Part shown: positions 1,971-63,440 of the stretch, in pieces
Layout: every line of letters begins with the position of its first letter
How positions within the stretch are numbered: the stretch's first letter is position 1
NCBI GenBank assembly: GCA_030674185.1
Contig: JAPXFY010000015.1
Location: 19,947,280-20,011,279 of the forward strand
Direction of reading: 5' to 3'
Length of the DNA stretch: 64,000 nucleotides
Source: Monoplex corrugatus
Taxonomy: Eukaryota; Mollusca; Gastropoda; Littorinimorpha; Ranellidae
Notes under the pieces: generated by a model
Seen by the model: only the letters and a program-made list of their open reading frames with translations
Told to the model about the DNA's origin: nothing
Database searches by the model: none
Position numbers and translations under genes: made by a program

Positions 1971-2354
1971 ATTATGATGATGACGAACCTTTATTTTCAT
2001 ATTCATGTTTTATTTACCAGTGTTTCACATTTCCCTCGGACTCCGGACATTGACCGATTGAAATTTGAAATGACCGATTGTTTTGCTTCTGAGCGGTCCC
2101 GCTGTCCGATTGATATGCTATCCGAGCGGACCCGTGTCCGATTATTACATGGAAATCGCGGACACGCCAAGTGTGTTTTATCGAGCGCGTTGAACGGCAG
2201 CGCTGGCTGTGGGAGGCCCTTGTAGTCGCTGACACGCCCGCTGACACAGTGACAGTGGACAGTTATTCTCTGTTAGCGTGCGCGATCTATTTTCAGCCGG
2301 TCCGGGTCGTATCTGCGATACACGTGGGTTTGTTTTCTTTCTGAGATCGTGAGA

Positions 2355-2522: not shown

Positions 2523-2616
2523 AAATTAGTAATTTTTGTTGCAAATGCTTTATGGTATATCAGAGTTCTGCATTACTGGACTTTTTTAAATAAACACTTG
2601 TTTTTTTGCGAAAAAA

Positions 2617-2700
2617 TGGTGTCCTATTGTTTTTTCATAGCCAGGACACTGTGTCCTATTAATTTTCTATGTCCAGGACACTGTGTCCTATTGGGGGTTC
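2617..2700. repeat. Direct repeat carrying a 15-bp palindrome
   Basis: The palindrome AGGACACTGTGTCCT occurs at 2643-2657 and again at 2675-2689, each time followed by ATT. A half copy (GTGTCCTATTG) lies at 2620. It may be a subterminal repeat of a transposon, possibly the Mutator element that starts just to the right. Confidence 0.7.
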
Positions 2701-2920
2701 AGAAAATGTGAATCATTGATTTACCATCTTCTTTTTAATGTACAGTACAAGTTCTTGTGCACATTCGGGTGATATCCTGTGTACAGTCAGGGAGTATCAA
2801 TGCTTTCTGTATATAACAGTCATAGATATAAAATAATGTGGTGTCCATAGCAAATATATGGTCAATGTAACTCTCTGCTGTAGGAGGTATTTTTTTTACC
2901 ACAGGGGAGAATGCTTGCAA

Positions 2921-4744: not shown

Positions 4745-4753
4745 TGTTGTACT

Positions 4754-17659: not shown

Positions 17660-17851
17660 TTTGTTGTTGAAAAAATCCGCAAAATCGATGATCACACTTC
17701 AAAAATTCAATACTCCGTGTTGAATCGAAGGAAATGCAAATGGCGGACGGAAGAGCAAAGTTTAGCCTCGTTTTGAATCGAAAGTAGTAGTGTTACTATT
17801 ATAAGTAACGGATATAGTGTTCGCGAACCGGGAATTTTGAACACCCTTAAC

Positions 17852-23100: not shown

Positions 23101-23957
23101 TAAATCCCGGAGGTGCCAGATCCTTCACTTTCGGTTCATCACCCTCAGATTTGAACCACGTTTCGGTGACACAGAAAATGTCAACATTGTGTTCAGTAAT
23201 GAAGTAGTTCATAGCTGACCGTTTCACTTTCGGGCAAGCAGACTGAGCATTGAAGATAGCTAGGTTCATGGATGTTGCATTGTGAGAAGTGGCAGCAGCA
23301 GGAAGAAGAGGAATGTCAATCAAATTTCTGACATTGACTGAAGGTTTGGTGTCGACACATGGAGAAGAATTGTCCAGTTTCAGTGGCAGATTCGAAGTTG
23401 TAGGGTGATAAACTTCATGCACCTGTGGATTTTTAGTATCATGTTGGCCAAATCTGGAGCTTAACACAGTTATTTTTCTTTGTTTTCGGCGTCCACCTCT
23501 GTGGGTACGTGTTTTCGGAAGATGGTAGCCAATGCCAAGATTCTTGATGGCAGAGACAGCAGAGGGCTTCAGAGTTGAAGGGGTTACGACCAGGAGTTGT
23601 TCACGTGTATAAACAAAAGTAGGAGAGCGTGGCGGAGAAAATGACTCTTGCAAGCGCCTGTCTGTGAAGAAAGAAGGGTTGAAACTGGAGGAAACGGATT
23701 TCTCGTGCAGAAAGAAGTGTTTACGTCGAACTGTTTGAAATGGCGGATTGTGGCAATGAAGGCTGTTGGCGAAATTTAAAACAAAAGCAAACCAGATCAC
23801 ACGACATTCAAAAGTTAACATTGTACAAAACACATACCAAAATAAAGTCCAATCCATTGCGAAACAGCAGACACCAAAATCACAGCGACACAGTACACAC
23901 TTCCACACTAACGAGACGAAATGCTAAGAGCAACGAAGTTATGCTGCCTGCTAGGCG
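20101..23957 (-). mobile_element. LINE A, full-length CR1/L2-like
   Basis: About 3.86 kb. The 3' end is an (ATT)n tail at 20101-20119 preceded (in element sense) by a stem-loop at 20131-20163 (AGCGC/GCGCT, CTTTC/GAAAG). The 5' end at about 23957 reads CGCCTAGCAGGCAGC, like the 5' ends of LINE B and LINE C. One endonuclease/RT frame with a single frameshift. Confidence 0.88.
20422..23857 (-). pseudogene. LINE A polyprotein, endonuclease plus reverse transcriptase, one frameshift
   Basis: Starts at ATG 23855-23857 with a Trp-rich hydrophobic segment (MDWTLFWYVFCTML), then TREQLLVV and a basic RGGRRKQRKI motif also found in LINE B and C. The apurinic endonuclease begins NLAIFNAQSACPKV, with VTETWF, and shifts frame at about 23050. 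It continues ILTGDFNIHYD, TLDWLV, LPSDHYCI, then RT motifs: NYRPVSNLPFLSKV, DLSAAFDTIDHEILL, YGVPQGSVLGPVLF, HSFSDDNQIY, LGVTIDNTL. The catalytic box is FSDD instead of the usual FADD. The C-terminus ends with the conserved SWNSLPYPLR region. Confidence 0.92.
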
Positions 23958-30176: not shown

Positions 30177-32126
30177 CTACAACTGGGCATAATCAGCTTT
30201 GGTGTGGAACAATTTGAAACAGGGTTCGACGCACAGTGGAATTTCACACAGTTCACACCAGTATTGTGTTTCTTTTGCTCTCTTCCTCTTTCCCTGCACA
30301 CTTGCTGCTCTGTCATAACACACCTTACAGTCTCTTCTAGGTTTTGCTTTGGCTTTCGTAGCTGGAAGTGAAACCAAAGAATGAAATTTGGTAATATCCA
30401 GACGCAGAAGAGTTTGTGGCTTGCTGGGCGTTCTTGAAGGTGGTTGTTGGGAAGGTGCTTCCATGTACTCTTCACAAAGCTGCTTTCCAAGGAGCTTCAT
30501 AAAATGAGGTACTGGCATTGGCTTCTGATGTGTCCTGACCCTCACTTTGTTGAAAATGATTCCAGCCTGGATAGCACACAGAGTGAGAAGGTGCATGAAA
30601 ATTTTGGTTGTCCATTTTGCTGTGCGTCGAGCCAGAGGAACGTAGGACAGAAGCTGGTCACTGTGGTCTACTCCAGACATATGTGCACTATACTGGACAA
30701 CAGCTTCTGGTTTTTCTTTGTCTGTGATATGCCTGCTGGTCACTCTTCTGGTTTCACGTGGGTCATAGACTGATGTTAGGATCGATACATCACGTTTATC
30801 TTTCCACTTCAGAACCACAAGATCTCCTTTCCTGCGAAAGCTACTTTCACCTGTCTGTAGTTTCTGCACAGCAAGATCTTTGGGCATTCCTACTCTGTTT
30901 GCCCTAACAGTTCCTGTGCACATGGTACTCCTGCTAACAAGCTGTTCACAGAGAGCTGGACAAGTGTAATAATTGTCCGTGAAGACGTGGTAGCCCTTAT
31001 CCAGCAGTGGCTCCATCAGTCTCAGGACAACATCAGTGGGCTTGTTACTCAGCCGGTGATCAGCAGCATAAATCTCAAACCTGTGCACATATCCTGATGA
31101 TGCCTCACACAGCTCATAGAACTTAATTCCCCATGGAGTAGGTTTGTCCTTGAGATACACTTTGAACCGTAGCTTGCCCCTCCAGGCACACATGGCCTCA
31201 TCAATGGATATCTCTTGCTCCGGAGTATACACTTGCTCAAAACGCTCCTGCAGATGCTCATACAAAGTTCTGATTTTATATAAGGGATCATGATGCTGCT
31301 CACCCACTGGCACATACTTTGCATTATCACTGAAATGCAGCATAGACAGAATAGCTTTGAAGCGATCCCTTGCTAAAATACGAGCTGCAAACTTTGTAGC
31401 CACAAATTCATCCAAACTCCAGTAGTCGTGAATTGAAGGCTTCTTCACAACACCCATGTGAAGCAGAATCAAAATAAATCCTTTCACCTCCTTCAGGCTG
31501 ACTGTTTTCCAGTTTCTGACCACTGATTTTTGACTGAACACAGGATTTTTTTTAGTTCAGCTGCATATCTGTTGGTTTCTTCTTTGATGTGTTTTATCAC
31601 AAAGTCATCACAGAAAAGCTTGAAACAAGACATAGCACTGAACTCCTCCAAATCAGCATTCAGGGCTGGGCTACCTTCAAATGTAGGAATTTGGGGATAA
31701 TTGGTGAGATCCTGTGACCAGTTTGTGTGTGTGTTGTCACTGCTGTCAGCGCCTATGTCACTGCCCATTTCATCAGCATCAACCACGCCCACTTCATCAG
31801 AATCATGTTGTAACTCATTGTCACTACCACTGCCTGACTCGACATCACTTCCTAATGTTTGTAGAACATCAAACGTTGTTTCTAAATTTACTCCACTGGT
31901 CGATGGCTGGCTGGACGAAACACTACTGGCCTTTTTCTTGCTTGTCTTCTTTCTTCTGACAGCGATAGGCCTAGCTGACTCACAACTATCACTATCGCTA
32001 CTCTCACCCACCTCTTTTCTACTAGGCACAAAATCTGGGTCACGATCTGAATCAAAATTGCTATCCGAAACATTTTCTTCACCAAAGAGATCAAAAATAT
32101 TTCTCTGTTCACCTGGAGAAGCCATA
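30177..32126 (-). pseudogene. piggyBac 2 transposase, one frameshift
   Basis: N-terminal frame starts MASPGEQRNIFDLFGEENV (ATG at 32126), with a long acidic/Ser-rich linker and KEETNRYAAELKK. A one-base shift in an A8 run near 31550 moves to the frame 30177-31541: LKEVKGFILILLHMGVV, ISIDEAMCAWRGK (first Asp), HVFTDNYYTCPALC (second Asp), HMSGVDHSDQLL (third), and a C-terminal Cys cluster CKVCYDRAA...CELCEIPLCVEPCFKLFH. Apart from the homopolymer shift the gene is complete, so it could be intact if that is an assembly error. Confidence 0.92.
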
Positions 32127-33718: not shown

Positions 33719-35722
33719 TTAGTCTTTTTGGGCAAGATGCCTGCTGGAAGAGCCCTTGAGGTAGGCAATCATTTCAGGTGAAAACTGCTTGGTCAGTGCA
33801 GATCCTGGCATGTGCTTGCAGATAATGAGAGCCTCTAGTAGTTGATCCCCCATCAGTGAGCGCTGGTCTGTTTTTATTTTTCTAACACAGGAAAAGACTC
33901 TCTCACAGCTGGCAGATGAGTGGGGCACGACAAGCAGGCCAAGAAGAAAGAGGCAAGCAGTCCTGATATCCTCCTGTTGAGCCAGCTTGCCCCAGAATAG
34001 GCCAATATCATCTGAAGGTGATGGCAGGGATTCTTTCTCCAGCAACACAATTTAAAGTGATTGGAGTTGGTTTACCACCTCGTCTTGAGTTGAGCCACTT
34101 GGAATAAGAATAGGCCACATTGTCATGAGTCCCTTTAAATTGTCTATGGCACCACTTTCAACAAACTTGCTGGGGTTCGTTGAGGCAACTTTCTTCAAGA
34201 ATGAATTGTTGTGAGGCAGGTTGTCTTTAAGGTAGTCACAGACTGACTGATAATAGGAGATAACAGATTTGAAAAAATCATCCTTCTTCTTGCCTGAGAT
34301 ATTCTTCTCCTTCATGAATGCCTCCACTTCAGATCCAACTTGGATGTCCTTGTGATCTTTCACATTGTACGCTGACTTGTAATCAACTTCACAGGGAGAT
34401 TTGTATATCATACCACTTGGCTTGACAAATTTTTGAAGGACTTCTTTCATGAGCCTGTTGATATTCTCATGGAGACTTTGGATCTGAGGGGCTTCTGACT
34501 GGTGCTTGGTGAGAAAAGGCTGGAAAGTCTTCACAGCAAACATCAAGAACAGAGCACAGAGACGAGCTGTGTGGGAACATAAGTTCTCATAAATTGAGGA
34601 TGCCTTCTTGTTAGCAGCTGTTCCTGGTTTTGTATTTTTCTCCTTTTCCTCTTTAAAAAAATCTCTCAAGGCTGGCCAGTCAGCAACCAACCTATTCAGA
34701 CATCGGGCAATGCTGATCCATCTGGTGCTCACATGCTTCAAAACTCCCCGCTGTTCCTGGCCATGATATTCTTGATATTTACCTAAATTCATTTGGCGAA
34801 CACTGCTTTTCTTCATATAGTAGTAGATGTCAACCAGAAGATCAGCAGGGGAAGATGGCAGTTTATCTGCAGCTTTCTCGGCAGCTAAGTGCACTAAATG
34901 CAGAGTACACCCAGACAGGAAACACTCAGGGTTCTTCTTCTTGATAAAGGAAAACACTCCCTTGTGAACACCAGTCATGACACTTGCATTGTCACAGCCA
35001 AATGAGACACAGTTGGTCCATGGAATGTCCCCTTCCTGCAGCAAAGCATCCAACAGATTAAAAATGTTTTCTCCTGTGCCAGAGCCATCAAGGACAGGTA
35101 ATGACACAACTTCTGAGTGAACCTCACAGGTCTCCACATTAAGTGTGCGAACAACAATGGGGTAAAGCTTCGCATTTGAGTCATTTGATCCATCTGTTGC
35201 AAGTGAGAATGGGCTGGTCTTTATCCTTTCCATAAGGGTGTCCTTGTGAATTTTTGCAATGTCTTTGATCATAGCAGTGGCCTTTGTGCGCTTACAAGAG
35301 AATTTCGCTGCAATTAAAGAATCATCAAACATTTCCTTGAAAGCTTCCGTCAGTGTGTCAGCTGCATTGATCGACAAGTTAAGGTCAGCAATCAGACTCA
35401 CCATTCTGATTTCAGCTTTGGTTATTTTTTGAGCAAGTTCCTTCTCCTTCTCCAATTCTTCTGCACTCTGTTGGGGTTTGAAGAATTTATGAAGTGATCC
35501 AGCCTGTTGGTTGTGATTCTTCTCTCTCTCAGAATGCCTGATGGATTTCTGATGTCGCTTAATATCCCCAGCACCGGATGCACCGATATAAATGTCCGAA
35601 TCACACAAAGTACATCTTGCATAGTGCACTGAGTCCTTGCCCTTGGTCGTACACTCCGTAGTGAAAGCAAAAGATTTCTTGTATGAGTTCAAAAAGCACT
35701 GCTTAGATGCCTTTGAAGCCAT
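33719..35722 (-). pseudogene. hAT 2 transposase with a single in-frame stop
   Basis: Starts MASKASKQCFLNSYKKSFAF (ATG at 35722). Residues ~30-75 form a BED-like finger (CTLCDSDIYIG...IKRHQKSIRH). Then KEMFDDSLIAAKFSC, PFSLATDGSNDSNAK (first Asp), CVSFGCDNASVMTGVHKG (second Asp), GCTLHLVHLAAEKA, STRWISIARCLNRL. The frame meets one TAA at about 34052 and resumes in the same frame to 33719 with the dimerisation motif SSASCERVFSCVRKIKTDQRS (Glu of the DDE triad is expected in this region). No frameshifts: a single nonsense change separates it from an intact ~667-codon transposase. Confidence 0.93.
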
Positions 35723-35732
35723 GGTCTTACTA

Positions 35733-36102
35733 ACTCACAACACCTAGAAAATGCACAAAAGGAATCTAGATCTATAAATAATCGAGTCAACTGCAATTTG
35801 AGAAACACACACTGTGTCACTTTGAGTGAGACACCCTCACTGTACTGTCTAGATCTAGTGTCAGCCTACTGTATCACTGTATCGAATATTAGATCTAGAT
35901 TCTAGATCTAGGCCCGGTTAAATCAGATCACGAGCACAAACTGTCCAGGTCAGAACAAATCTCTCCAATCGAAATTTTCACAGCCTCACAAAGAACGAAA
36001 ACAGCACTGAAGTTGAAGCATGTGAAATCTACGTAAAAAGTGCAGAAAACTATTGTTCCCCACTAGAGATCTATCTTCATTCAAAAGATGCACTGAACTC
36101 AC
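35733..36102. repeat. Copy A of the hAT 2 5' tandem repeat, uninterrupted
   Basis: About 370 bp starting AACTCACAACACC. Copy B begins at 36103 with the same bases. Contains several CTAGATCTAGAT stretches. It preserves the empty-site version of the DUF7869 insertion (GCAGAAAACTATTGTTCCCC near 36043). Confidence 0.85.
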
Positions 36103-36187: not shown

Positions 36188-38828
36188 GTAACTATAAGTG
36201 CTTTTGCACTCTAAGCCTCTGTACCTAGAACATTTTAAGGATTTCACAGAAAAATTGGGGTAAGTCACAAAAAATGTCATAACTTCCATACCTGATAAGA
36301 TAAACAAGTTTGGTTTGCTTTTACTGGTTAGTAATTGAAAGTACTGCTTGATGCCACCTAAGATGTTAATTTACATGGAGATTATAATTATTTAACAAAT
36401 TATTTACCTGCTAATCACCAGAAAAAAAATTAATGCGTTGTTGTTGCGTGTTAAAAACATAAATAAAACACAATCAGAAAACAAAAAGCATGCAAATGTA
36501 TTTGTAAAATGTTTGTGCTTGGAAGTGGAGTGACTGTTTACCTCAAGAAACATGCTGAGCTGCTAATCCACAGATAATCCACAGGTGAAGTTCAGGTAAA
36601 TCCAACAGTGTGAAAAAGACAAGTCTCTCATTTCAGCTTGAAAATACAGTCAGTTCAGGTTGAAATTCAGGCTGATAATTTGTGAAAGTTAATCCTAACA
36701 CAACAAACTTTACTCCAGGGCACTTTGAACAGTATATGCAGATCATAACCAATCAATAAATCCAGGTAACAATGGCAGGTAACAGGTAAGTATACAGGTA
36801 AGTCATTATGTCTTGTATACACAGCAAAGTCTGAGTTTGAAGCTAGTTGTAGTGATGAAAAGAAGCCCAACATCCTTCTTTGCACAAGGCAACTTGGCAG
36901 ATTGTACACTCAAAGCTGGATTGGATTTTGTTGCCAGCTGGTGTTCGGCACCCTTCTTTATTGCAGGTGTAGCAAAGCCGCTTACCTCTGGCAGTTGTGA
37001 TCTTTGCTGGCTCATGGATGGCTTGTTTTGCTGCAACTGGAGAATTCATAACATAACTTTTACGTTTTCTTGAGGAAAACTGTCCTATCAGCAACTCTGC
37101 CACCTTCAAATGAAATTCCAGATGGGTCAGGGGCTTTGTGCGTGGGCCGCCAGGTGCTTCCTTGTACAAGACGTATGCGTTCAGCAGAGAAACATCCATT
37201 ATAAACCAGAATATGTATTTCCACCATTTGTGTGCTTTGCCTGCAGAAGAACCGTAGTATGTGCGAAGCTGGTCATTTTTGTCAACGGCATTAAAATGTT
37301 CTGTGTATTCCTGAATCGCACGTGGCTTTGGGTATTGACGGGCTGGCTGTCCACGTTTGCCTGGCCTATTGACTTGTATGTCATCCACTTTGTTGGCAGT
37401 ACACAACACTGAAACCTTTTTCTTCTTTTCACACCAACTGATGGCTGTCATGCCCCCCTTCTGCATTTTCAGGTGCTCACCACTGTTTTTAAATTTCACA
37501 CTCTTTATCTCTTGTGGGAGACCCTTCCTATTGATGCGCACAGTGCCGCAGGAATATGTTCCGTTTGCCAACAGCTGTTCCACAAGTGCAACACTTGTAA
37601 AATAGTTGTCAAAATACACATGATGATATTTGTGTAACAGATCTGTGTCTGTCACAAGTTTCATGACCACCCTAGTGCCCAGAGGTTCCTGCACTCCAGC
37701 CTGTGTGAGATCTTTCCCAGTGTAGATGTTGAAGTCGCACATATAGTAAGAGGTTGAGTCACAAAGGGCCCACGCCTTTATCCCCCACTTGTGTGGCTTT
37801 GCTGGGACATATTGAAGAAAGCCACACCTACCTTTAAATTTAATCATGGCTTCATCAACAGCAACTTCACGGTGGGGTGTGTAGAGGGTCTTGAAGGCTG
37901 CTTTTGCATTTTCTATCACAGGTCTGACCATGTGAAGTTTGTCATGGTTTGGTTGTCCACGTGGGGGGTTGGTCTCTCTGTCACTTAGGTGAAAATTATC
38001 TTTGAGGGCTTCATAGCGGTTTTTTGTCATCACTTTGGACACAGAAGACTGGTGTAAGAAACTATCTCCTGACCAGTAGTGTCTGTAGCTAGGCAAACGC
38101 ACAACACCCATCACAAGCTGCACACCTAAAAACGCACGAATCTCAGCAGCGCACGTGTCAACGAAATGAACGCGATGTTTCTGTTGCGCGTACAAGTTCG
38201 TTTGTGTAGCAAACTGATCAAACATTTCCTCAGGAACAAACTGACAGAAATAATCCAGAGGTGTTGCATCAAGGTCTAGAGGCGTTGTCGGACCTACATG
38301 ACGGGTGAAACGCTGTAAAATTGGGTCTGAAATAGGCTGTTGTTGCCACCCAGCATCTCCGCCGCCATGATCGTCAAGGCGTCGTCTGACACACGGCACA
38401 CACCGCTGAAAAACTCCAGTGTCGCTGTCCTCAAAGTCGGATAAGTCACTTGTGTGAACACTAGAAACACTTATGTCACTTCCCTCCGAATCTGACACAG
38501 GATGGTTGCGAATAGAATTGTCAGTGGCTGCAAACTCAGGGTCACTGTGGCTCGAAGATGCATCCGAGTCCGCCATGTTTGTTATTGTCGCGTGGCCACT
38601 TCGTATGTAGCGGTATTTTGCCTTCTTATTCAGCACACACAGTGCTTAACTGCGCATGTGTGGTGTGGAAAATATGCATGACCTTTCCCCTTTAGATGGC
38701 TATTCTTGCCTTTTTGATAGGAGAGCTGCTTACCGCATCACATGACTTCCATATACGGGACTCTAGTTCAGGTGCCTACAGGCGTTTCAGGTACACACGT
38801 GACAGGCGCCTATGGGCGTTTTAATTGA
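36188..38828 (-). mobile_element. piggyBac 3
   Basis: 2641 bp between TTAA at 36184-36187 and 38829-38832. Excising it rebuilds a palindromic target, ATATCTCTTAAGAGATAT. Unusually, the ends inside the TTAAs (GTAACTATAAG and, inverted, TCAATTAAAACG) do not match each other, so either the ends have diverged or my boundaries are off. The right side has GGCGCCTATGGGCG-type inverted motifs. Confidence 0.8.
36843..38576 (-). CDS. piggyBac 3 transposase, intact
   Basis: 577 residues from ATG at 38574-38576 (MADSDASSSHSDPEF). Acidic N-terminus, then EIRAFLGVQLVMGVV, VAVDEAMIKFKGRCG (first Asp), VYFDNYFTSVALVEQ (second Asp), EHFNAVDKNDQLRTYYG (third Asp region) and a C-terminal Cys cluster CYTCNKEGC...CTICQVALCKEGCWASFH. 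Uninterrupted. Divergent from piggyBac 1 and 2, so the window holds three piggyBac lineages. Confidence 0.95.
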   Translation of the reverse strand: MADSDASSSHSDPEFAATDNSIRNHPVSDSEGSDISVSSVHTSDLSDFEDSDTGVFQRCVPCVRRRLDDHGGGDAGWQQQPISDPILQRFTRHVGPTTPLDLDATPLDYFCQFVPEEMFDQFATQTNLYAQQKHRVHFVDTCAAEIRAFLGVQLVMGVVRLPSYRHYWSGDSFLHQSSVSKVMTKNRYEALKDNFHLSDRETNPPRGQPNHDKLHMVRPVIENAKAAFKTLYTPHREVAVDEAMIKFKGRCGFLQYVPAKPHKWGIKAWALCDSTSYYMCDFNIYTGKDLTQAGVQEPLGTRVVMKLVTDTDLLHKYHHVYFDNYFTSVALVEQLLANGTYSCGTVRINRKGLPQEIKSVKFKNSGEHLKMQKGGMTAISWCEKKKKVSVLCTANKVDDIQVNRPGKRGQPARQYPKPRAIQEYTEHFNAVDKNDQLRTYYGSSAGKAHKWWKYIFWFIMDVSLLNAYVLYKEAPGGPRTKPLTHLEFHLKVAELLIGQFSSRKRKSYVMNSPVAAKQAIHEPAKITTARGKRLCYTCNKEGCRTPAGNKIQSSFECTICQVALCKEGCWASFHHYN

Positions 38829-39231: not shown

Positions 39232-42200
39232 CTAGTCGGGAAAATAGGATTTAAATTGGAAAGTTTTGAGGGCAGTCTTGAAAGAAGTAATAGATTCAAT
39301 GTAGCGAATTTCACGGGGCAGAGAATTCCAAAAAGTTGGTGCTGAATATGAAAAGGTGCAGTGACCGAAGGTTTTAGTTCTTACTCTGGGAATGCACAGT
39401 AGTCTTAAGTCAGAAGAGGAGCGAAGATTTCTGGAAGGTGAGTAGACGGATAGGAGATCAGAAATGTAACAAGGGGACGTTCCAGAGAAAAATGAATGAC
39501 AGAGAATCGCAAGTTTGAATTCGATACGAGCTTGTACAGGAAGCCAGTGGAGGCGTTTTAGCAGAGGAGAGACATGATCTCGCTTACGGGATTTAAAAAC
39601 AAGCCGAGCTGCAGAATTTTGCACTTTCTGTAGTTTATCTATTTGATCTTTTGAACATCCAGAAAGAAGTGAATTGCAATAATCCAGTCTTGAGAGAATG
39701 AAAGCAGAAACCAGAGTTTTTGTAGCATCAACAGAAAGAAGATGACGCAAGGAACTGATTTGGCGGAGATTGATGTAAGCAGTGCGACAGGTGTTGTTTA
39801 CATGAAGTTCAACACTCATGTTGTCAGTGAAGTAGAAACCAAGATTCCTAGCTGAGGAGGAGAAAGGAATTTCAGTCTGATCAATGGTAATGGTAGTAGG
39901 TTTGGGAGATGGGGAGGTTTTGAAAGGAGAGGACAAAAAGAGAGCTTCAGTTTTGTCATCATTTAACTTTAATTTATTTTCTAGCATCCAGGTCTTGATA
40001 TCTGAGATACAGTCTTCTAAGACTGGGATAGCAGAGTAGATATCAGAAGGAGGAGAATCAATTTCAAGTTGGATGTCATCTGCAAAGGATTGATGCTTAA
40101 TGGAATGTGATTTTATCAAATCGGAGAGTGGCTTTGTGTAAAGAGCAAAGAGCACAGGTCCCAGAACGGAACCTTGTGGAACACCGAAAAGGAGATCAGT
40201 GGGTGGGGAGGAATGATTGATGACAAGGACTGATTGTGTCCTGTTCGTGAGATACGACTGAAACCAAGAAAGAGCGGTGCCTGAAATACCATACAGAGAG
40301 GAGAGTCTATTAAGAAGAATGTTATGATCAACAGTGTCAAACGCAGCTGACAGGTCTAATAGGGTCAGCACAGAAACATTTCCAGAGTCAAGGGACAGAA
40401 GAAGATCATTGGTAATTTTGAGTAGAACAGTTTCCGTGCTGTGATGTGGGCGGTAGGCAGACTGTGAAGCACAGAGCAGATTATTTTCATCCAAATAGGT
40501 AAGAAGCTGTTTCAGAACAATTTTCTCTAAGATTTTAGAAATGAAAGATAGGTTAGAGATGGGTCTGTAGTTTCTCAGGGAGTCAGGATCCAAAGAAGGC
40601 TTTTTAAGAAGGGGTTTCACAACAGCGGTTTTGAGAGGGGATGGTAATGAACCAGATGTTAGAGAAGAGTTGATAATCTCAGTCAGAGTAGGTAGAAGGT
40701 CGTCGAGAAACTCAAGAAAAAGTGGTGTTGGCAGGGAATCCAAAGGGCAGGAAGTAGGTCTTGATTTTTGAATGATGGATTTCAGTTCAGATTCAGTGAC
40801 AGGATGAAACCGGTGGAAAGTGGATTTTACTGCTTGAGTTTTAAACTTTTGTTTCATCTGGGGTAAAACAGCTTGATCCAGGTCAGTGCGGATTGACTGC
40901 ACTTTCTGAGAGAAATAGTCTCTGAATACAGTAGGCAAATCATGCAGGGGATAGGTATTTGGAAGAGGAGATGTTTTATCTCTACCTAATAGCTTATCAC
41001 ACACCCTAAACAAGGTCTTTTGGGTTTGAGCACCGGCTATCTCATTTAGGTGAAACATGGACTTAGCATTACTGACAATTTTGCCCACTGCCTTCTTTGC
41101 AATATTAAAAATCTGTTTGTTGATAGTGATCGGGTTTTTCAGCCATTGTCGTTCGGCCCAGCGCCGATGTTTCTTTGCGGCCTCAAGCTCTTCTTTTACG
41201 TCTAAGTACCAAGGCTCGAGTCTGTTTGCGCGCAGTTTTCGTTGGCGCAATGGTGCGTGTTTGTCTAGCAAAGATGACAGCGTGCTGTTTAGCATGTCGA
41301 TTGACGGGCACTGCTGGGGACTGACTAGACTACAGAGGTCAGATCTAAAATCAGCGTGATTTATCGCACGTAGGTTGCGGGATTTTGTAAGCACCGTGGA
41401 GTTAGTAGGAACAGTCAAGGACAATTTAGAAACGACACAATAATGATCAGAGGACAGAGATTCCGTAACATAAGATGAAGCTAACACATTGTCCGCTGGC
41501 CTAGAAATGACCCAATCCAAAATGTGACCACGTTTATGAGTTTTTTCATTGACAGATTGAGACAGATTGTACATGTCCAATAAGTTTTTCATTTTCACAG
41601 TGCGGTAATCATTGTCAGAGTCAAAATGTATGTTTATATCACCAAGAATGATCAAGTTTCCAGAGAGAGTGTTACAGTAATCTAGCAAAAGAGAAAATTC
41701 GTTCAGAAACATAGAGTGAGTCAGCTGGTTTTCCTGGGATGGCGGGGGACGGTATACACAGATGAAGTGTGTACAGTTTTGAGACTGCGTCAGTGAAACA
41801 CGGACGGCCTCGAACGACGGATGCTGGAAGGGGAAGGAGGTGGAGCGTGCCAGGTGCTTATCAAGCAAATCGCGGTACACAACAGCTATTCCTCCACCGC
41901 GTGCTGGACGAGCGATGGACATAGATGAAAAGCCCACAGGCGTCAGATCTTTGAGTTGTGCTTCATCGCCTTTTTCCCGAAGCCAGGTCTCAGTAACAAA
42001 TAACATATCAATGTCATTGTCAGCGATGAAGGTAGAGATCTCAGCCCTCTTCACGGCGTTGCGCTGGATGGACTGCGCGTTGAACAGTGCCACAAAGAGG
42101 TCGTGTTTTGGAGCACTAGGTATGGCATCAGGAATCAAAGGAATGTTAATGAGGTTGCAAGGGTTTGAGCCGGAGGAACGTTTGGTGGTGAAACAGGGAT

Positions 42201-42765
42201 CAGAGTCAGGTTGGCAGGAAGAAGATTTCAGTGTAGAGTGGTCAGTGGCTGATGATGGTTTGTCAAGGGAGAAAGTGCCAGGACGGCCGATAACAGGGAT
42301 CTTTCTCTGTTTCCTTCTCCCTCCCCTACACCCCCGTACACGTGGAAGGTCTACACCAATGCGAAACCGTCGCAACTTCAAGTTGAGGGCGGGGTCAAGG
42401 GGTGCAGGTTTCACTGCCAGTAGCTCATCACGAGTGAAGGAGATGGGGGGTGAATGGGGATGGTGGCAGTTGAGAGGAGGTGGGTGGACGGTAGAGAGTG
42501 AGTGTGATTGCTCACACATTGCAGCGCTGTCAGTGGAGACGAGTGGGCAGAAGAGAGAGCGAGGTGGTACAGCAGCAAGCATGGGTGAAGCGTGAGAATG
42601 ACCCTGAAACCGCACGCGCGGCACGCAGGCGAAACAAGATGGAGGACAGGCATGATTCTTCAACAGTACAGTATCCGTCAGTCGCGCCAAAAACAAAAAC
42701 CACAAAAGTCGAAGATGCAGGGGAAGGGAGGCACAAAACAATGACCAGATAATAGTCCACATCAT
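39232..42765 (-). CDS. LINE B polyprotein: N-terminal basic domain, endonuclease, RT
   Basis: 1177 residues from ATGATG at 42763-42765 (MMWTIIWSLFCASL), the position homologous to the starts in LINE A and C. A hydrophobic N-terminus is followed by FTRDELLAV and the basic RGGRRKQRKIPV motif (~150). Endonuclease: VALFNAQSIQ, VTETWLREKG, RGGGIAVVY, IILGDINIHFD, HILDWVIS, LSSDHYC. RT: NYRPISNLSFISKI, DLSAAFDTVDHNILL, FGVPQGSVLGPVLF, HQSFADDIQLEID (FADD catalytic box), LGFYFTDNMS, then the conserved WNSLPREIRYIES C-terminus. CR1/L2 superfamily by style, no RNase H. Fully open, so potentially active. Confidence 0.95.
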   Translation of the reverse strand: MMWTIIWSLFCASLPLHLRLLWFLFLARLTDTVLLKNHACPPSCFACVPRVRFQGHSHASPMLAAVPPRSLFCPLVSTDSAAMCEQSHSLSTVHPPPLNCHHPHSPPISFTRDELLAVKPAPLDPALNLKLRRFRIGVDLPRVRGCRGGRRKQRKIPVIGRPGTFSLDKPSSATDHSTLKSSSCQPDSDPCFTTKRSSGSNPCNLINIPLIPDAIPSAPKHDLFVALFNAQSIQRNAVKRAEISTFIADNDIDMLFVTETWLREKGDEAQLKDLTPVGFSSMSIARPARGGGIAVVYRDLLDKHLARSTSFPFQHPSFEAVRVSLTQSQNCTHFICVYRPPPSQENQLTHSMFLNEFSLLLDYCNTLSGNLIILGDINIHFDSDNDYRTVKMKNLLDMYNLSQSVNEKTHKRGHILDWVISRPADNVLASSYVTESLSSDHYCVVSKLSLTVPTNSTVLTKSRNLRAINHADFRSDLCSLVSPQQCPSIDMLNSTLSSLLDKHAPLRQRKLRANRLEPWYLDVKEELEAAKKHRRWAERQWLKNPITINKQIFNIAKKAVGKIVSNAKSMFHLNEIAGAQTQKTLFRVCDKLLGRDKTSPLPNTYPLHDLPTVFRDYFSQKVQSIRTDLDQAVLPQMKQKFKTQAVKSTFHRFHPVTESELKSIIQKSRPTSCPLDSLPTPLFLEFLDDLLPTLTEIINSSLTSGSLPSPLKTAVVKPLLKKPSLDPDSLRNYRPISNLSFISKILEKIVLKQLLTYLDENNLLCASQSAYRPHHSTETVLLKITNDLLLSLDSGNVSVLTLLDLSAAFDTVDHNILLNRLSSLYGISGTALSWFQSYLTNRTQSVLVINHSSPPTDLLFGVPQGSVLGPVLFALYTKPLSDLIKSHSIKHQSFADDIQLEIDSPPSDIYSAIPVLEDCISDIKTWMLENKLKLNDDKTEALFLSSPFKTSPSPKPTTITIDQTEIPFSSSARNLGFYFTDNMSVELHVNNTCRTAYINLRQISSLRHLLSVDATKTLVSAFILSRLDYCNSLLSGCSKDQIDKLQKVQNSAARLVFKSRKRDHVSPLLKRLHWLPVQARIEFKLAILCHSFFSGTSPCYISDLLSVYSPSRNLRSSSDLRLLCIPRVRTKTFGHCTFSYSAPTFWNSLPREIRYIESITSFKTALKTFQFKSYFPD

Positions 42766-42861
42766 CACAAAACAGTTGGTATAACTTTCACCACAAACAA
42801 AGCACCACAACCACAATAATCCATTAAATAATAGAGAGACAAAAACTCAGCCTGTCAGGCG

Positions 42862-43003
42862 AATGTAACTTCTGATGATCCGATCACGAACACAAATGTC
42901 CAGGTCAGAACAACTCTCTCCAATCGAAATTTTCACAGCCTCACAAAGAACGAAAGCATCACTGAAGCATGTGAAATCCACTTAAAAAGTGCAGAAAACA
43001 ATT
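42862..43003. repeat. Copy B of the hAT 2 repeat, third segment
   Basis: Matches copy A 35925-36055 (GTCCAGGTCAGAAC, CTCTCCAATCGAAATTTTCA, AAAAAGTGCAGAAAAC) and ends at the DUF7869 transposon. Confidence 0.85.
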
Positions 43004-43035
43004 CGTCGGTGATATCACGTACTAGAGTAACCAAC
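43004..43035. repeat. Left terminal inverted repeat of the DUF7869 transposon
   Basis: Pairs with 47241-47272, 31 of 32 bases. Contains GATATCACGTACTAG, repeated inside both ends. Confidence 0.95.
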
Positions 43036-43225
43036 AATTTCCTAACTTTACAGGAGGGCAGGTTAAAGTTTTGGGCGCATTTTAAAATTCAACTGAGAGA
43101 TAACTATAAGCCACATCATGCTCATATTTGGATATGATATTCTTCTTAATGTCAATTTTACTCTCTCAATGCAAGTTACAAGAAATAATGCACATACTTT
43201 GCAAAATTTATCCTTTTTACAGATA

Positions 43226-43302
43226 CCCTAGTACGTGATGCAATTTTTCCCACTCCAAAATGTCAGATACGATATTTTTATGCGATACGCTAGTATGTGA
43301 TA
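43226..43302. repeat. Left subterminal motif copies
   Basis: CCTAGTACGTGATG at about 43227 and ACGCTAGTATGTGATATC at about 43285, inverted relative to the left terminal repeat. Confidence 0.8.
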
Positions 43303-43522
43303 TCTATTGATCAGAATACTTTACAAAAATTGTGTAGCTTACGCCACTTGATTAATATATTTATAAAGCAAGTTACACCAGGTTAAGGTAGATTGACTTT
43401 AATTTTGCAAAGCAAATAACAGTATGAAAAAAGTGAGTGAATAATGAACAAGTGCAAACCAAAACATCATCCAAATAAACTGAATCTAATTTTTCTTTGA
43501 ATATAATAAAGGCAAAAAACGA

Positions 43523-43700
43523 AAACCAAGGAACATGACATATTGGAGTCAGAATGAGCCTTAAAATAATACAAAATGCACGTACTCACAGGGTTGAAGT
43601 CTCTTCAAAGGAAACCAAGGAACATGACATATTGGAGTCAGAATGAGCCTTTAAAATAATACAAAATGCACGTACTCACAGGGTTGAAGTTTCTTCAAAG
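43523..43700. repeat. 88-bp tandem duplication downstream of the transposon ORF
   Basis: Two near-identical units (AACCAAGGAACATGACATAT ... GCACGTACTCACAGG ... TCTTCAAAG) immediately 3' of the stop codon. Confidence 0.9.
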
Positions 43701-43702
43701 TT

Positions 43703-46168
43703 CTACTCAAAATGAGGCAAATTCATGTAGAAACTTCTGTGTTCTCTGATTTTGACAACAGGTGTCGTTCCCGAGCAAAGAGAAAGTAGATCATTATACT
43801 TCTCTTTCGAGATCTTGTTAGCTTCTGCGTTCAGCTTAGGGAGATCATATTCGTTAATGCTTTTTTTCAGTCTTTTGAGAGATAGAGATTTAAATTCTTG
43901 ATTAGAGTGACTTGTTTTATAGAACACTTTGTCAAGATGTTGCTTTGAAACCTGAAGTTCCATCACTCTGTTCCAGTTGAATAACTCCTCACTTCCAGAA
44001 CATCTTCTTGCTTCCAGAATACGAAGGTCTTTTGATAGGGTTTTGAAATCCCAAAAGTCATCAACCTGCAGCTGGTGAATGATGTAAGGCTGCTTAGGGC
44101 GGGCAAGACTGAAAACAGTTGTCAGTTGGGATGGTTGAAACAGATCACCTGCTGAATTCACTGCCTGATTTATTACACTATGCGCTGAGTCACCCTCATT
44201 TTGACCATGAAAGGATTCAAAGAAGCGGAGCGATATTTCCTGCAGATTGGTGCTTTTGCTAACTGTATATAGCATCATCGCTGGCATTATTGAGTTTTTA
44301 TTTTGACCGACACATCCATCGGAAAATAGATAGGCTTTTCTTACTCCCTTCTCATCATAAAACCTCAGGGCTTCGAAAACTGCTGTTGAAATCTCAGATG
44401 ATCCACGTTTGCTGGTTGCTTCATCCCAAGTAAAGCAATGGCAGTTTTTGTCACCGATGTTATAAAATGTAAGGTTGTACACAGCTAGTCTTCTTTTGTA
44501 AAATAGGGCGCTTTCCTTTGAGATTGGGAGATGGATGACCTGTTGCAGATCAAAGCTTGCACAAAGCACTGTTTTATTTTCTACAGCTTCTTTCTTACAT
44601 TGATCCTTCAACTCTCTCACTTTTTGTTTTTCTCCTACATGAATCTCATATCTTTCTCTAAGATTTTCCTTCACTGTTTCGTCTCCTTTGAGATAGGTCA
44701 TGCACAGAGAACATTGGTCCTTTTTGGGTCTGTGTATCGAAAGATTTTTTTCCTTAAAAATTTTCTTGTAGAGAGCAAAACTTGGTGGATTTGGTCGAGG
44801 GTTCCATTCTTTTATAAATAAGTTGTACATTTTCCTTTTTGACAGGTCTGGGTGCAAATATTCCCTTGTGGTCGATTCTCTGCAAAAATGAGACTCAACT
44901 CTTGGAAATCTATCGATGTGACCTTCAATCTTTTGGCGTATCATCTGATCTCTAGCTACCACTGTTTCTGATTGTGTTCCTCCTCTGTTGTCCTTTGTCA
45001 TTGTCCCTGTCGAGGTGATCTTGCTGAGTGCGGTTCTTGTGGTCTGTTCTGATATTGCTAAGGTGTTAAGGAAAAACACCTTGCAAACTGGGACAACATT
45101 TTGATTGATGGTAAAAAAATAGCTTTTGGTTACTTGTCTTCGCGATGCCTTTTCTGGATTGCTTTTCCTTTTGGTTTGGGAGCATTTTATATGTCTGACA
45201 AGGAATTCCCTTTGCAACCTGAGATCTGCCAGTGCATAGTAGGACTGAAATAATTCATGCCTCTGTTCATCACTAATCGTTGAACAATGTCTCACACATG
45301 TGTTTTCTTTACATCTTGTTTTCATCTTTCTTGCAGCAATTTTCTTTTTTGTGGCATTACTTGTATATTCTTGCCCCATATTTCTTTGACGTTTTGCTTC
45401 CTTCTGTTTGTTTGGCCGGGACATCTTTTCCTTGGCAACTTCCCTGGCACTACCTTCAACATTATAATCTTCAGGTAATGCCATGTCATGGTGAACATCA
45501 TCATTTGGCACCTCAAAGTCATTTTCATTCGTTTGCATGTGACAGGGACCACCAGAACTCAATGTTGTCTTAGTATCTGCCCGCTTATCTGCTCCAGATT
45601 CCTCTATTGCCAATTTATCTACCTCACAAGTTTTTCCTTGGTCTCTCTTATTACTTTTGACTTTACCGTGTTGGGAACAAGACGATATGTCCTCGTTGAA
45701 ATGATCAAAACAGACCAAGATTTCACAATCAGGACAGGCTGCCCACACTTCTTTCTTGCATCGTTTGACCTCACATTGTCCAGGATTAAACTCTGGGTCT
45801 TTATCTGAATCATAATATTCACAAAGTGACATCCCCTCACTACTGCTGGCTTCACTCATGACCTCTTCAGCCCCCTCTATTCCATCATTACTGTTCTCAA
45901 GAGTTTTAAATGTGCTTTGAGTTTGATTGTCATCCTCGTGAATTTCATTAGATTGTCCATTTGAAATGTTAATTGTCTTTTCTCTGTCTTTGCATCTGCT
46001 TTGAAGAATCACAAGTGGAATATCATCATCAGAGTCGTTGTCATTTTGACTCTCTGGCTTTTGCAAACCAGTGGCATGTTCTGGACCAGGCCTGCCAATG
46101 TCTTTTGGCTTACTTTGCAATTTGATAAGTCGAACATCTTCGTCAGAGTCTCCTTTAAAATCTGCCAT
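43703..46168 (-). CDS. DUF7869-like transposon protein, candidate DDE-type transposase
   Basis: About 821 residues from ATG at 46166-46168 (MADFKGDSDEDVRLI). The open frame extends 26 codons upstream without ATG, across a good splice acceptor (TTATTGTTTCAG), so a 5' exon is possible. Acidic Ser/Asp-rich N-terminus; Cys-rich zinc-binding region ~130-170 (CEVKRCKK, CPDCEILVCFDHF); second Cys/His cluster ~290; QCSLCMTY ~485. The C-terminal half resembles DUF7869: CASFDLQQVIHLP (Asp ~540), TSKRGSSEISTAVFEAL, YLFSDGCVGQNKN (Asp ~617) and ESFHGQNEGDSAHSVI (His/Glu/Asp/His ~654-663). These spaced acidic positions look like an RNase H-fold nuclease; that activity is inference. No stops or frameshifts. 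Confidence 0.85.
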   Translation of the reverse strand: MADFKGDSDEDVRLIKLQSKPKDIGRPGPEHATGLQKPESQNDNDSDDDIPLVILQSRCKDREKTINISNGQSNEIHEDDNQTQSTFKTLENSNDGIEGAEEVMSEASSSEGMSLCEYYDSDKDPEFNPGQCEVKRCKKEVWAACPDCEILVCFDHFNEDISSCSQHGKVKSNKRDQGKTCEVDKLAIEESGADKRADTKTTLSSGGPCHMQTNENDFEVPNDDVHHDMALPEDYNVEGSAREVAKEKMSRPNKQKEAKRQRNMGQEYTSNATKKKIAARKMKTRCKENTCVRHCSTISDEQRHELFQSYYALADLRLQREFLVRHIKCSQTKRKSNPEKASRRQVTKSYFFTINQNVVPVCKVFFLNTLAISEQTTRTALSKITSTGTMTKDNRGGTQSETVVARDQMIRQKIEGHIDRFPRVESHFCRESTTREYLHPDLSKRKMYNLFIKEWNPRPNPPSFALYKKIFKEKNLSIHRPKKDQCSLCMTYLKGDETVKENLRERYEIHVGEKQKVRELKDQCKKEAVENKTVLCASFDLQQVIHLPISKESALFYKRRLAVYNLTFYNIGDKNCHCFTWDEATSKRGSSEISTAVFEALRFYDEKGVRKAYLFSDGCVGQNKNSIMPAMMLYTVSKSTNLQEISLRFFESFHGQNEGDSAHSVINQAVNSAGDLFQPSQLTTVFSLARPKQPYIIHQLQVDDFWDFKTLSKDLRILEARRCSGSEELFNWNRVMELQVSKQHLDKVFYKTSHSNQEFKSLSLKRLKKSINEYDLPKLNAEANKISKEKYNDLLSLCSGTTPVVKIREHRSFYMNLPHFE

Positions 46169-46246
46169 GCTTGACGCACATTTTTTGTATTCCTGAAACA
46201 ATAAAACGACAAAAAAGTAAAAAGAAATTGCATTAGATGTTTCCAA

Positions 46247-46281
46247 GTCAAGTCAAGTGCTAGAGTGTATAGCACTTGACT
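46247..46281. repeat. 13-bp perfect hairpin
   Basis: AAGTCAAGTGCTA and its inverse TAGCACTTGACTT separated by 7 bases, immediately before the U2-like fragment and upstream of the transposon ORF. Confidence 0.85.
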
Positions 46282-46282
46282 T

Positions 46283-46311
46283 ATCACTTCTCAGCCTTTT
46301 GGCCAATATCA
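46283..46311 (+). ncRNA. U2 snRNA 5'-end-like fragment
   Basis: ATCACTTCTCAGCCTTTTGG followed by CCAATATCAA closely matches the conserved 5' end of U2 snRNA (branch-point region upstream part). The rest of U2 is absent, so it is a truncated pseudogene or captured fragment on the strand opposite the transposon gene. Confidence 0.65.
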
Positions 46312-46540
46312 AAGAATAGGATGTTTCCAAAAGTGCACTAATTCCCATGATATAATGTAATGTAGCAAACATAAAATTTAGAAAGTGTGATTTTGAATAG
46401 AGAATGGGAGCAGGGAATCAAGTAAAATGATAAGATTGTGACAAAGAATCAATTCGTAAATACTAGTATATAGGCCTAGTTGTCTTTCATCATACTTGAT
46501 CACCTGATTGAAAGGAGCCTGTCATTATGTAAGCTTACTT

Positions 46541-46565
46541 TATCTTTATCATCACCATTATCATC

Positions 46566-46597
<32 letters not shown>

Positions 46598-46632
46598 CAT
46601 CACCATCATCATCATCAGCATCATCATCATTA
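46541..46632. repeat. (ATC)n microsatellite
   Basis: About 90 bp of ATC repeats with a few ACC/AGC variants, inside the 5' region of the DUF7869 transposon. Confidence 0.95.
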
Positions 46633-47049
46633 CGGTTGTTGTTCATGGGACAGCCAAATACTAAAGAAATATTTCATGCAGGCTAGATCTACATAAAAAT
46701 GCACATTTTGTCATTGAGAATTTCATATTAACAGTGAACTAACACATGAAATGCACCATTGAATACAACATAAATCATTATAATCTAATTGTAAGCTTAC
46801 CATATAGATCTAGAGGTAAATAATAATTGAACATACCTGTGCTCAGTGAAATTTCGTAGAAACAAGCTCCTGTTTCCCAAGTTTTCTTCTGAGTTCAGCG
46901 CGCCAAAAGTTTCGTCACAATTCCGGCGGACGTGACCTACGGCACACTCCCATTGAAAAGAAGGGTAAAAGTTCACAGTGATCTACTTCATTGAGTCACT
47001 TACGCTACCTTGTGTGGCTAACAATGTATGGTCATTTGGATGCAAATCG

Positions 47050-47123
47050 GATCTCACGTACTAGCGTATCATCCATTACGCTAGTTCGTTGTATCACTTT
47101 ATGGGAAAACAAGCCACACGCTA
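47050..47123. repeat. Right subterminal motif copies
   Basis: CTCACGTACTAGCGTATC (~47053), ACGCTAGTTCGTTGTATCAC (~47079) and CACGCTAGTACGTGAAG (~47107), in both orientations, mirroring the left side. Confidence 0.82.
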
Positions 47124-47240
47124 GTACGTGAAGAGGCGGTATCTCAGCAAAGAATGCACGCATCGATACGCCGCTTTGAGTTGACCTAGATTTATGTATT
47201 TGCAATTGTGTGATGGTTATAACTCAATTTTGACCTAAAT

Positions 47241-47272
47241 GTTGGTTACGCTAGTACGTGATATCACCGACG
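47241..47272. repeat. Right terminal inverted repeat of the DUF7869 transposon
   Basis: Inverse of 43004-43035 with one mismatch. Confidence 0.95.
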
Positions 47273-47698
47273 AATTGTTCCCCACTATCTTCATTCAAAA
47301 GATGCATTGAACGTCCACGGAAAGGGCCAGTCGGACAAAGAAACACAACTCCACAATGGCGGCTCTGTTGACATTTCACGACCAAGAAACCGGAACTCAC
47401 TGGGATTTGAGCAGTAAAAAAACAAAGGCCTGAACGCAAACAAAATTCTATCATCGAGTGCTAATTAATTTCCGATTCCGATACTTGATGGAGAATAACA
47501 AGAGGTATCGGCAATTGCTCGCGTATTCTCAACCAAGTTTTACGATCCGAGTAGGGCTTGACAGCGGGTTTCGAGCAATGGCGATCATGCTTACCGGAAA
47601 ATCAAAAGATGCGTATTTGATCGTTTTGACGCGTATTTGCGTATTGCTGACAGTTTTGCGTACTAGAATACGCAATTGCTTACAGGTTGGCAAGTCTG
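47273..47698. other. hAT 2 right-end sequence
   Basis: End of copy B, then unique 5' sequence of hAT 2 with GCGTATTTG-type repeats, finishing at the inverted terminus. Confidence 0.7.
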
Positions 47699-61057: not shown

Positions 61058-63440
61058 TCACAGCTTCTTAAGTTCCTCTTGTTTCTTTGCCAGTTGAATG
61101 GATAGACTGCTGGCTATGTCTTGTTTGTCCCTTGAAGACAGGCGAAGCTCATTGGACCTCTCCACGAATGTGAAGCTCCTCTGTTCCTGAGCTTTAAAAC
61201 TCAGGTTGTCAGCTTCAACAGCGAGTTGCTTTGAATCATTTTCTGCTTTCTTTTTCTTCTTCTCCAGCTCCCCAATCTCTTGTTCAAGAGCCTTCCGCTT
61301 CAGTTGGTTCTGGGTTGTCTCCTTTTCCTGACGTTGTTCTTTCAGGTGTTCGTTGTATCTGCCCCATGCAGCACTTGCAGACACGAGGAGGGGCTTGTCC
61401 AGCTTGACGTTCTGGATTCCACCAACATCACGGATGTGGTCTATTATGACCCGTCGGGCTTTGAGTGCTTTCTGGCTCAGATTGTCAGCAGAAGCTTCTT
61501 TATTGTGGGAAAATCCTCGTTCTACTGTGGCTTGCCCATGGGACAGCAGCAGCATGTTCTTAACGAAAGGCCTGAGGTTGGAGAACTGGGAGTGTTCTAG
61601 AGCCAGGCACCACCAGGTGTCCACCCTGTCTTTTCTCACAGTTGAAGGAGCTGGCTGAGTGCGTGGCAGCAGTAGGCAGGAAGTTGGTGAACTCCTGAAG
61701 AATGGTGTCCGCCTTCACTTCAATCACTCTGCCGCTGTCAATGGCATTCTTCAGAAGAAGACTCATTTTCCTTTGGCTCTCTTCTTTGTTGTTGAGCTTG
61801 GCAGGGTCCAGGCATGACATGTTTCTGGCCACTCCGTATTTTAGTGGGCACTTTTCTATCATTTTCCCTACTAGTTTCATCAGAAAGCTTCGACACTGTT
61901 TGTCAAAGTCCCTGATTAGTCCCTTGGATACACCTGGCAGCTTCTTTGCCTTGTTGACGAGGCTTGTCGTCTTAAAGTCCAACTGCACTCTTGCTCGCAG
62001 ATTGTTTGCATTCTCCAAGTCTATCTGACTCAGTGGGGTATCAGTTAGCACATCCTCTTTGATGAACCTCTGCATGAGGTTCTTCAGCATGGTCTGGAGA
62101 TCCGTGGCCATGAAAGGCATGAGGGGCTTGTCTGCCTGGTATTTTTTCAGGAATGGTTCAATGAGCCGAGCAACAGATGCAAAGAAAGACAGTTGGCTGG
62201 GCAGCAAGGGGTTGTTGACACCAGTTTTCAAACATTCAAAACTGTTATTACGTGGCAGAGCGATCTTCTTGGTCAGCGCAGCTTTCACAAACAAATCTAG
62301 ATTGGGCAACAGTTCAATGGCTCGCATTGCAGGCACAGCATTCTCCAGCCACCTGTGGCGACAGAACTTCAATGGAAGAGAGGATGCTTGGGTTGTGGCA
62401 TAGTAATCCTCAAGGCGAGCTGGACTGTCTTCAAAGAGCTTGTAGGATGCAGACAAAAAGTCTTCTATTTTCCACCCTGTGGCTTCACAACCGGTACGGA
62501 AGGCGTTGTGCAGAGTGTGAAGGCCACAGCTTCCCACATGCAGCAAGGAGACTCCATGGTTGTCTTTCATGTCACAGTTGATGGTGTGTAGACAATCCAA
62601 TTCACGTTGGGCCCATCCATGCCAAGTGTAGCAAGTCTCTCTTGTTCAAGTTGGACTTTGTGAAGACTGACTCAAACTTTGCAATCATGTCCTTTCCTGT
62701 GGCGTGGCCCAAAAACTCTGAAGTCAAATACCGTGTTTTCACAACAAATCTTGCCAGATTCGTATCATAAAGTCCATTTGCGTCATGTGGTTTTGCTTGT
62801 TCAAAGACTCGTCAAAGAGCAAAACATATCCTAGTTCAGAGGAAGCCTTGACATTCTTTTGTAGCAGCTCAGAAAATCGGGGTTCAAGCCCAAATGTTGT
62901 CAGGTATCAGCACCTTGTTTCCCCACATTGAAATCTGGCAGCAATGTCACTGTCTGAGAACATAGATCTGAACAATTCTCCGCTCTGCTCTGATGATCTG
63001 TAACTGTAGTGGCAGTCCACAATTTTCATTGCCCACAACACTTCAGCCTTCAACCGACCACTGTCAAGATCAAAACTAGACCTAGGCCTAGTACTAGTAG
63101 TAGATATCTGTGCTTGGACTTGTTCTGACACACCTTCATTGCTGGCAGTTGCACGACTAGTGCTGCTAGTTGAACTGTAAGTGACTGTGCTTGTACTGTT
63201 TGTTGAAAAGAAATCAGTCATGTTACATCTGGTGTCTGCCTTGATTTTTCGTTCATTTTTCACATGTCTGTCCGTCTTGGCATGTTGTTTAAGGACACTC
63301 TCTCCCATTGATGCAATTTTCAACGAAACTCCACAAAAAAGGCACCGAGCAGAATGCTTGTCCACAGTATCCCTTCTCACCCACTCACAATAAACTTTTT
63401 CAGATAACCATCTATCCTGAAAGGAACATTTCCCTGGCAT
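61058..63440 (-). pseudogene. hAT 3 transposase, several frameshifts
   Basis: Starts MPGKCSFQDRWLSEKVYCEW at 63440 with a BED-like finger (CLFCGVSLKIAS...HAKTDRH). LKAEVLWAMKIVDCHYSYRS and FRSMFSDSDIAARFQCG follow, then frameshifts between 62907 and 62600 where GYVLLFDESLNKQ (first Asp) and YLTSEFLGHATGKDM, LATLGMDGPNVNW (second Asp) are read in pieces. The frame 61560-62600 carries HTLHNAFRTG, RWLENAVPAMRAIELL and KCPLKYGVARNMSC. A one-base shift near 61640 leads to SHGQATVERGFSHNKEASAD (dimerisation region) and a Lys-rich coiled coil. Same family as 51521-52460 and 58558-59643. Confidence 0.88.

Follow-up and report, generated by a model that had tools for sequence, protein, structure and literature searches.

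A young DNA transposon of the gastropod Monoplex corrugatus encodes a predicted DUF7869-type DDD transposase and is likely a Sola2-type element

A 64,000-nucleotide stretch of the Monoplex corrugatus genome (GenBank assembly GCA_030674185.1, contig JAPXFY010000015.1, positions 19,947,280 to 20,011,279 of the forward strand), referred to here as the window, contains a 4269-bp element with one long gene for an 821-residue protein of the DUF7869 type. The ends, copies and coding capacity of this element make it very likely that it is a young, autonomous cut-and-paste DNA transposon encoding a DUF7869-type DDD transposase, that is, an enzyme with three catalytic aspartates. An initial annotation of the window had delimited the element and proposed that it might found an undescribed superfamily. 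Our analysis upheld the element and its ends, and the features of the family point instead to a placement near the Sola2 transposons.

Results

An element with defined ends and eleven complete copies

The element is bounded by terminal inverted repeats that are identical at 31 of 32 positions, as initially annotated, or at 32 of 33 when lengthened by one base, and it lies between two AATT tetranucleotides. Its features in the window are the following.

43004-47272, minus strand (that of the gene): complete DNA transposon, 4269 bp
43000-43003, no strand: left target-site duplication, AATT
47273-47276, no strand: right target-site duplication, AATT
43004-43036, plus strand: left terminal inverted repeat of 33 bp (one mismatch to its partner)
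47240-47272, minus strand: right terminal inverted repeat, partner of the left repeat
43703-46168, minus strand: putative transposase gene, DUF7869 type, intact frame of 821 amino acids
43014-43028, 43225-43239 and 43287-43301, no strand: three subterminal ACGCTAGTACGTGAT motifs, candidate transposase binding sites
47053-47067, 47078-47092, 47118-47132 and 47248-47262, no strand: four subterminal ACGCTAGTACGTGAT motifs, candidate transposase binding sites
43523-43700, plus strand: two tandem copies of a unit of about 90 bp, between the stop codon and the left end
35922-36098, plus strand: empty site, where a related host-repeat copy lacks the insertion

We searched the window's own assembly (3.018 Gb, 7621 contigs) for further copies. 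The first 297 bases of the element gave 12 full-length matches displayed as 100%, and 13 stretches were compared: 11 of these 12 matches (the window's own excepted) and two places with an end only. Eleven copies, the window's included, were complete, and exactly the same ends were common to all of them. In ten of the eleven, the flanks form a perfect direct duplication of 4 bp: seven copies have ATAT, two AATT and one ATGT. When the assembly was scanned with the first 22 bases, allowing up to two mismatches, 25 places were found, and a control pattern gave none. The 11 complete copies account for 22 of these places, one per end, and three one-ended copies account for the rest, with none outside the element; 24 matched exactly and one had a single mismatch. 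Two of the one-ended copies (L011 and L021) have their other end in a run of N, and the third (L020) is missing its left 785 bp. Short non-autonomous copies with these ends were absent from the assembly at up to two mismatches over 22 bases, a threshold at which more diverged ones would be missed. Thus, the ends and 4-bp duplication proposed from a single copy recur in its relatives.

AATT is a palindrome, and the window copy alone therefore cannot separate a duplication from slightly longer inverted repeats. This ambiguity is what favors a reading of the inverted repeats and AATT as a product of chance or of a palindromic host repeat. A sister copy flanked on both sides by the non-palindromic ATGT establishes a 4-bp direct duplication rather than a longer inverted repeat, and the complete copies at different sites refute the chance reading. 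Furthermore, terminal-repeat pairs this good are expected about 1e-8 times in the window by a rough binomial estimate. The empty site argues in the same direction: the joined flanks of the element align at 86% over 177 columns, spanning the junction, to a copy of the host repeat about 7 kb away from the insertion. That copy, which had already been noted in the initial annotation, reads CTATTG where the filled site has CAATTG, a difference of one target base. Taken together, these findings reduce the probability of a chance origin to almost nothing.

The subterminal regions share the motif ACGCTAGTACGTGAT, which matches the window seven times when up to three mismatches are allowed. All seven lie within the element, against an expectation of 0.63, and none of 100 shuffles reached this count.

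The encoded protein has a predicted DDD catalytic core

We aligned 216 sequences to a profile of residues 530-705 of the protein and counted the residues at the candidate catalytic positions; the 54 rows used to build the profile are among those scored. Three aspartates stood out, and in the following list each count refers to rows with a letter in that column.

44549-44551, minus strand: D540, first putative catalytic aspartate (in FDLQQ), D in 211 of 211 rows; model strand 534-541
44318-44320, minus strand: D617, second putative catalytic aspartate (in SDGC-GQNKN), D in 212 of 212 rows; end of model strand 611-617
44189-44191, minus strand: D660, third putative catalytic aspartate (in H-x5-D), D in 208 of 209 rows; model helix 658-672

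In rows with all three columns, every position was D in 204 of 205, the exception being sequence P0060. The initial annotation had named FDLQQ, SDGC-GQNKN and H-x3-E-x-D-x2-H as candidate catalytic positions. Its three motif regions and their aspartates held up. E658 and H663 are also common: of the 209 rows with a letter at the position in question, 199 have E and 206 have H. However, both are replaced, by G and F respectively, in a third group of DUF7869 elements of this genome that we call lineage 3 (L055, L057). They are therefore less likely to be catalytic, and the third motif reduces to H-x5-D.

An AlphaFold model built with 54 sequences (mean predicted local distance difference test score, pLDDT, 77; predicted template modeling score 0.53) places these residues in a core that runs from strand 534-541, which carries D540, through strands 561-570 and 576-582, helix 590-606 and strand 611-617, which ends in D617, to helix 627-638, strand 644-650 and helix 658-672, with D660 near its start. 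By blocks of ten residues, the pLDDT of the catalytic core is 84-98. This order of strands and helices is that of the RNase H-like integrase core, and the modeled catalytic core thus appears to be RNase H-like. The conserved triad and the predicted fold, together with the ends, duplications and copies described above, leave us with little doubt that the 821-residue protein is a DDD transposase, with D540, D617 and D660 as its triad, and that the element is a cut-and-paste transposon.

The window protein is filed under DUF7869 (PF25273) because full-length relatives carry that domain. One of these, P0008, is 49% identical over 95% of the query and has a precomputed PF25273 match. In an alignment of 27 members that takes in the window protein itself (A2), 26 matched PF25273 at E<=0.1, the best at 6.6e-14. 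Three homology searches returned 84, 110 and 467 hits, the last at E<=1. Named sources included molluscs, insects, springtails and fish, as judged from the best 120 of the 467 in the largest search. The nearest homologue among the listed matches was an uncharacterized protein of Babylonia areolata, LOC143288506 (P0001), which is 88% identical over the whole length. One hit of the largest search, P0214, labeled as from a Sedimenticola metagenome bin, was set aside as presumed host DNA in the bin. In virus contigs, profiles A1 and A2 produced 6 and 29 pattern matches, respectively, and a scan of prokaryote genomes produced 15; none of these was confirmed as a relative.

Nearer the N terminus, at about residues 130-165 (45674-45781, minus strand), lies a Cys/His cluster that by its spacing may be a zinc finger for DNA binding; its pLDDT is about 87. 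It matches the Tc5 C-terminal domain (E 0.0064) and 1wys (E 0.14) weakly. Among solved structures searched by sequence, the single protein had one match at E 0.14 and the profile had none at E<=10.

The copies are young

Any two of the 11 complete copies are separated by 5-23 substitutions in 4176-4281 aligned bases, and nearly all variants that lie beyond an ATC-repeat stretch are private to single copies. The 821-codon frame is open in six of the eleven. In a protein search of the genome, in which 55 of 4706 candidates were scored, eight of the 55 rows span residues 1-821 without a stop. These rows also show a gap in identity: the element's own copies are 84-100% identical by stretch, compared to 29-39% for the next relatives. 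Such a gap fits a recent arrival or a burst, and horizontal transfer of the family is possible. Collectively, these sequence data support the view that the element is young, recently mobile and autonomous, in line with the recent movement that the initial annotation had suggested from the intact gene and the similar ends.

Other DUF7869 lineages share the flank preference

With 150 of 256 candidates scored, PF25273 matched this genome at least 149 times; 14 well-known genomes used as controls gave no match. The genome holds five or more DUF7869 lineages, the window's included (L042-L051 examined). Among six sequences compared, the catalytic blocks are 33-46% identical, with one pair (L042/L050) at 63%; the other lineages are 33-37% identical to the window protein in this block. 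In a comparison of nonsynonymous with synonymous divergence, synonymous divergence between lineages was saturated. The comparison of termini concerned lineages 2 and 3 and set aside the loci L047, L048/L051, L044/L045 and L049/L050 of other DUF7869 lineages (microsatellites, N, or ends beyond the sequence compared).

Lineage 2 (L042, L043, L046) has 34% amino-acid identity to the window protein over residues 244-818. Its right end reads ...GTTTATCCGGGCAGCCCTCG and is followed by ATAT, AAAT and ATAT in the three copies. The left end, CGAGGGTTGCCCGGATAAAC, was located in two of the three, with ATAT before both, and ATAT thus flanks both sides in both copies for which the two ends are known. Lineage 3 (examples L055-L057) matches DUF7869 at 69.6 bits in many copies. 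Its 21-bp right end, GATTTTCATATGCACTGTCAC, has 68 exact occurrences in the genome, of which 64 are followed by AWWT, where W is A or T (ATAT 52, ATTT 6, AAAT 5, AATT 1). In one copy a left end was also located, which matches at 17 of 20 bases and adjoins ATAT. One lineage 3 copy (L057:298-5007) is open over at least two stretches, and the bodies are 99.5% identical as judged from three loci. Lineage 3 is probably a second, larger recent burst.

These lineages differ in their termini and follow one flank rule, and so the common factor is the DUF7869 protein. On these sequence comparisons, it is very probable that the DUF7869 domain is that of a cut-and-paste transposase. The findings bear on a different account, in which the DUF7869-type gene is a passenger or a captured host gene and another transposase moves the element. 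In its favor, DNA cutting by the 821-residue protein rests on sequence and a model. However, this gene is the only open reading frame of more than 106 amino acids inside the element, its product has the triad and a modeled RNase H-like order, and several lineages that are diverged in the catalytic block are present in the genome. Moreover, other termini go with the same flank preference in lineage 2, of which two copies show both ends, and in lineage 3, of which 68 right ends and one left end are known. We accordingly rate a passenger gene as highly improbable and take the intact gene, as initially annotated, to be the one tied to the mobile ends.

Surroundings of the element

Two open reading frames of the long interspersed nuclear element type, 20422-23073 and 39232-42816, have endonuclease and reverse transcriptase domains; the second (1194 amino acids, uninterrupted) is situated just to the left of the element. 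Three others (15926-17695, 30177-31541 and 36843-38636) match PF13843 strongly (E 1e-83 to 1e-91), which we take to be the piggyBac-type transposase domain. The frame at 4777-6312 has an RNase H domain (E 6e-12), and four frames of 307-556 amino acids (22985-23908, 26891-28384, 34052-35722 and 61560-62600) have no Pfam match at E<=0.001. A U2 small nuclear RNA-like stretch inside the element (46283-46374) scored 19.4 against an Rfam cut-off of 46 bits and is not claimed.

Discussion

The Sola superfamily was reportedly named in 2009 by Bao, Jurka and Kapitonov. According to a plant-transposon review (PMC10741241), Sola elements encode a DDD transposase, generate 4-bp duplications, are mostly 2-9 kb in size and have terminal repeats of 11-1124 bp. 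A Fanzor element study (PMC3627910) describes Sola2-type transposons from Dictyostelium fasciculatum and Polysphondylium pallidum; their duplications are AWWT, of 4 bp, and their transposase has 888 residues. The family described here has the Sola marks: a DDD triad in 204 of 205 rows within a modeled RNase H-like order, 4-bp duplications in 10 of 11 complete copies, a length of 4269 bp and repeats of 33 bp. It also has the Sola2 mark, since AWWT accounts for nine of its ten duplications, for both flanks of lineage 2 (ATAT in two of two copies, with AAAT at the third right end) and for 64 of 68 flanks in lineage 3. Like the Sola2-type elements, it carries one large transposase gene (821 residues compared to 888) and short terminal repeats; these measure 12-13 or 21 bp there and 33 bp here, and the Fanzor gene of those elements has no counterpart here, where a second long open reading frame is absent. 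The undescribed superfamily of the initial annotation thus gives way to marks that are already in print (PMC10741241, PMC3627910). We favor a new family of Sola2 type; the likeness is one of described features, and membership is likely rather than proven.

Other superfamilies fit less well. Kolobok, which the initial annotation had raised as a possible home, and piggyBac are likewise DNA transposons that have terminal repeats and duplicate 4 bp of their target. The Kolobok target is TTAA, a sequence found in none of our ten duplications. Membership in an already named superfamily, which the annotation had set as a ground for refuting its proposal, is the probable outcome, with Sola2 in place of Kolobok. 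For piggyBac, the target is likewise TTAA (PMC5199201), and a Pfam scan of the window protein returned DUF7869 and no piggyBac domain. The compact spacing between the second and third acids (43 residues from D617 to D660) recalls Tc1/mariner. Transposases of that group have DD34E-type spacing. Their TA duplication is not seen here: the duplications are of 4 bp, and AATT and ATGT contain no TA.

Several observations weigh against our interpretation. One complete copy, L019 (element 1499-5773), has no duplication, with AAAA on its left and GTAT on its right; recombination between copies or loss is a possible cause. One of the ten duplications, ATGT, falls outside AWWT, one of the 22 complete-copy ends differs by one base within its first 22, and four of 68 lineage 3 right ends are not followed by AWWT. 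The window protein itself scores 19.2 bits against PF25273 (E 0.00097), below the Pfam cut-off of 26. No named Sola2 transposase was among the matches listed in the homology searches (in the largest, the best 120 of 467). Finally, a survey of molluscs that used profiles of 17 superfamilies and covered five gastropods found Sola apparently in bivalves only (PMC10294476), compared to at least 149 DUF7869 matches in this gastropod genome.

The last two observations also favor a different placement, in which DUF7869 elements form a superfamily of their own apart from Sola1-3 and share AWWT duplications and the DDD triad with Sola by coincidence. A direct sequence link to Sola2 was not obtained, and DUF7869 goes unmentioned in the literature searched, a search that lay outside subscription papers and Repbase entries; the link of this Pfam entry to mobility may therefore not be in print. 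However, such a coincidence would have to extend to the triad, the 4-bp duplication, AWWT, element size and repeat length, all of which match published Sola or Sola2-type features. Given these matches and the bivalve-only survey, we regard a separate superfamily as a minority possibility and Sola2 as the likely placement. Should the former apply, DUF7869 transposases would constitute a large, unnamed AWWT superfamily, common among animals and distinct from Sola1-3, with several lineages in this genome and at least one recently active; this we put forward tentatively.

For the Sola2-like element that we favor, we infer binding, excision and catalysis from the features above. The transposase would recognize the terminal repeats together with all seven ACGCTAGTACGTGAT motifs of the subterminal regions (three at the left and four at the right) and would cut the element out of its donor site. 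The ends would then be joined to the two target strands at points staggered by 4 bp at AWWT, most often ATAT, and repair of the gaps would yield the 4-bp duplication.

On this interpretation, DUF7869, which Pfam now lists as a domain of unknown function, would gain a concrete role as well as candidate catalytic residues and a target rule. Uncharacterized proteins in the hundreds (467 hits at E<=1, of which the best 120 were listed) could receive a transposase annotation, and gene counts could be corrected. In M. corrugatus the family looks young, intact and compact, which makes it a candidate that can be tested for Sola2-like activity.

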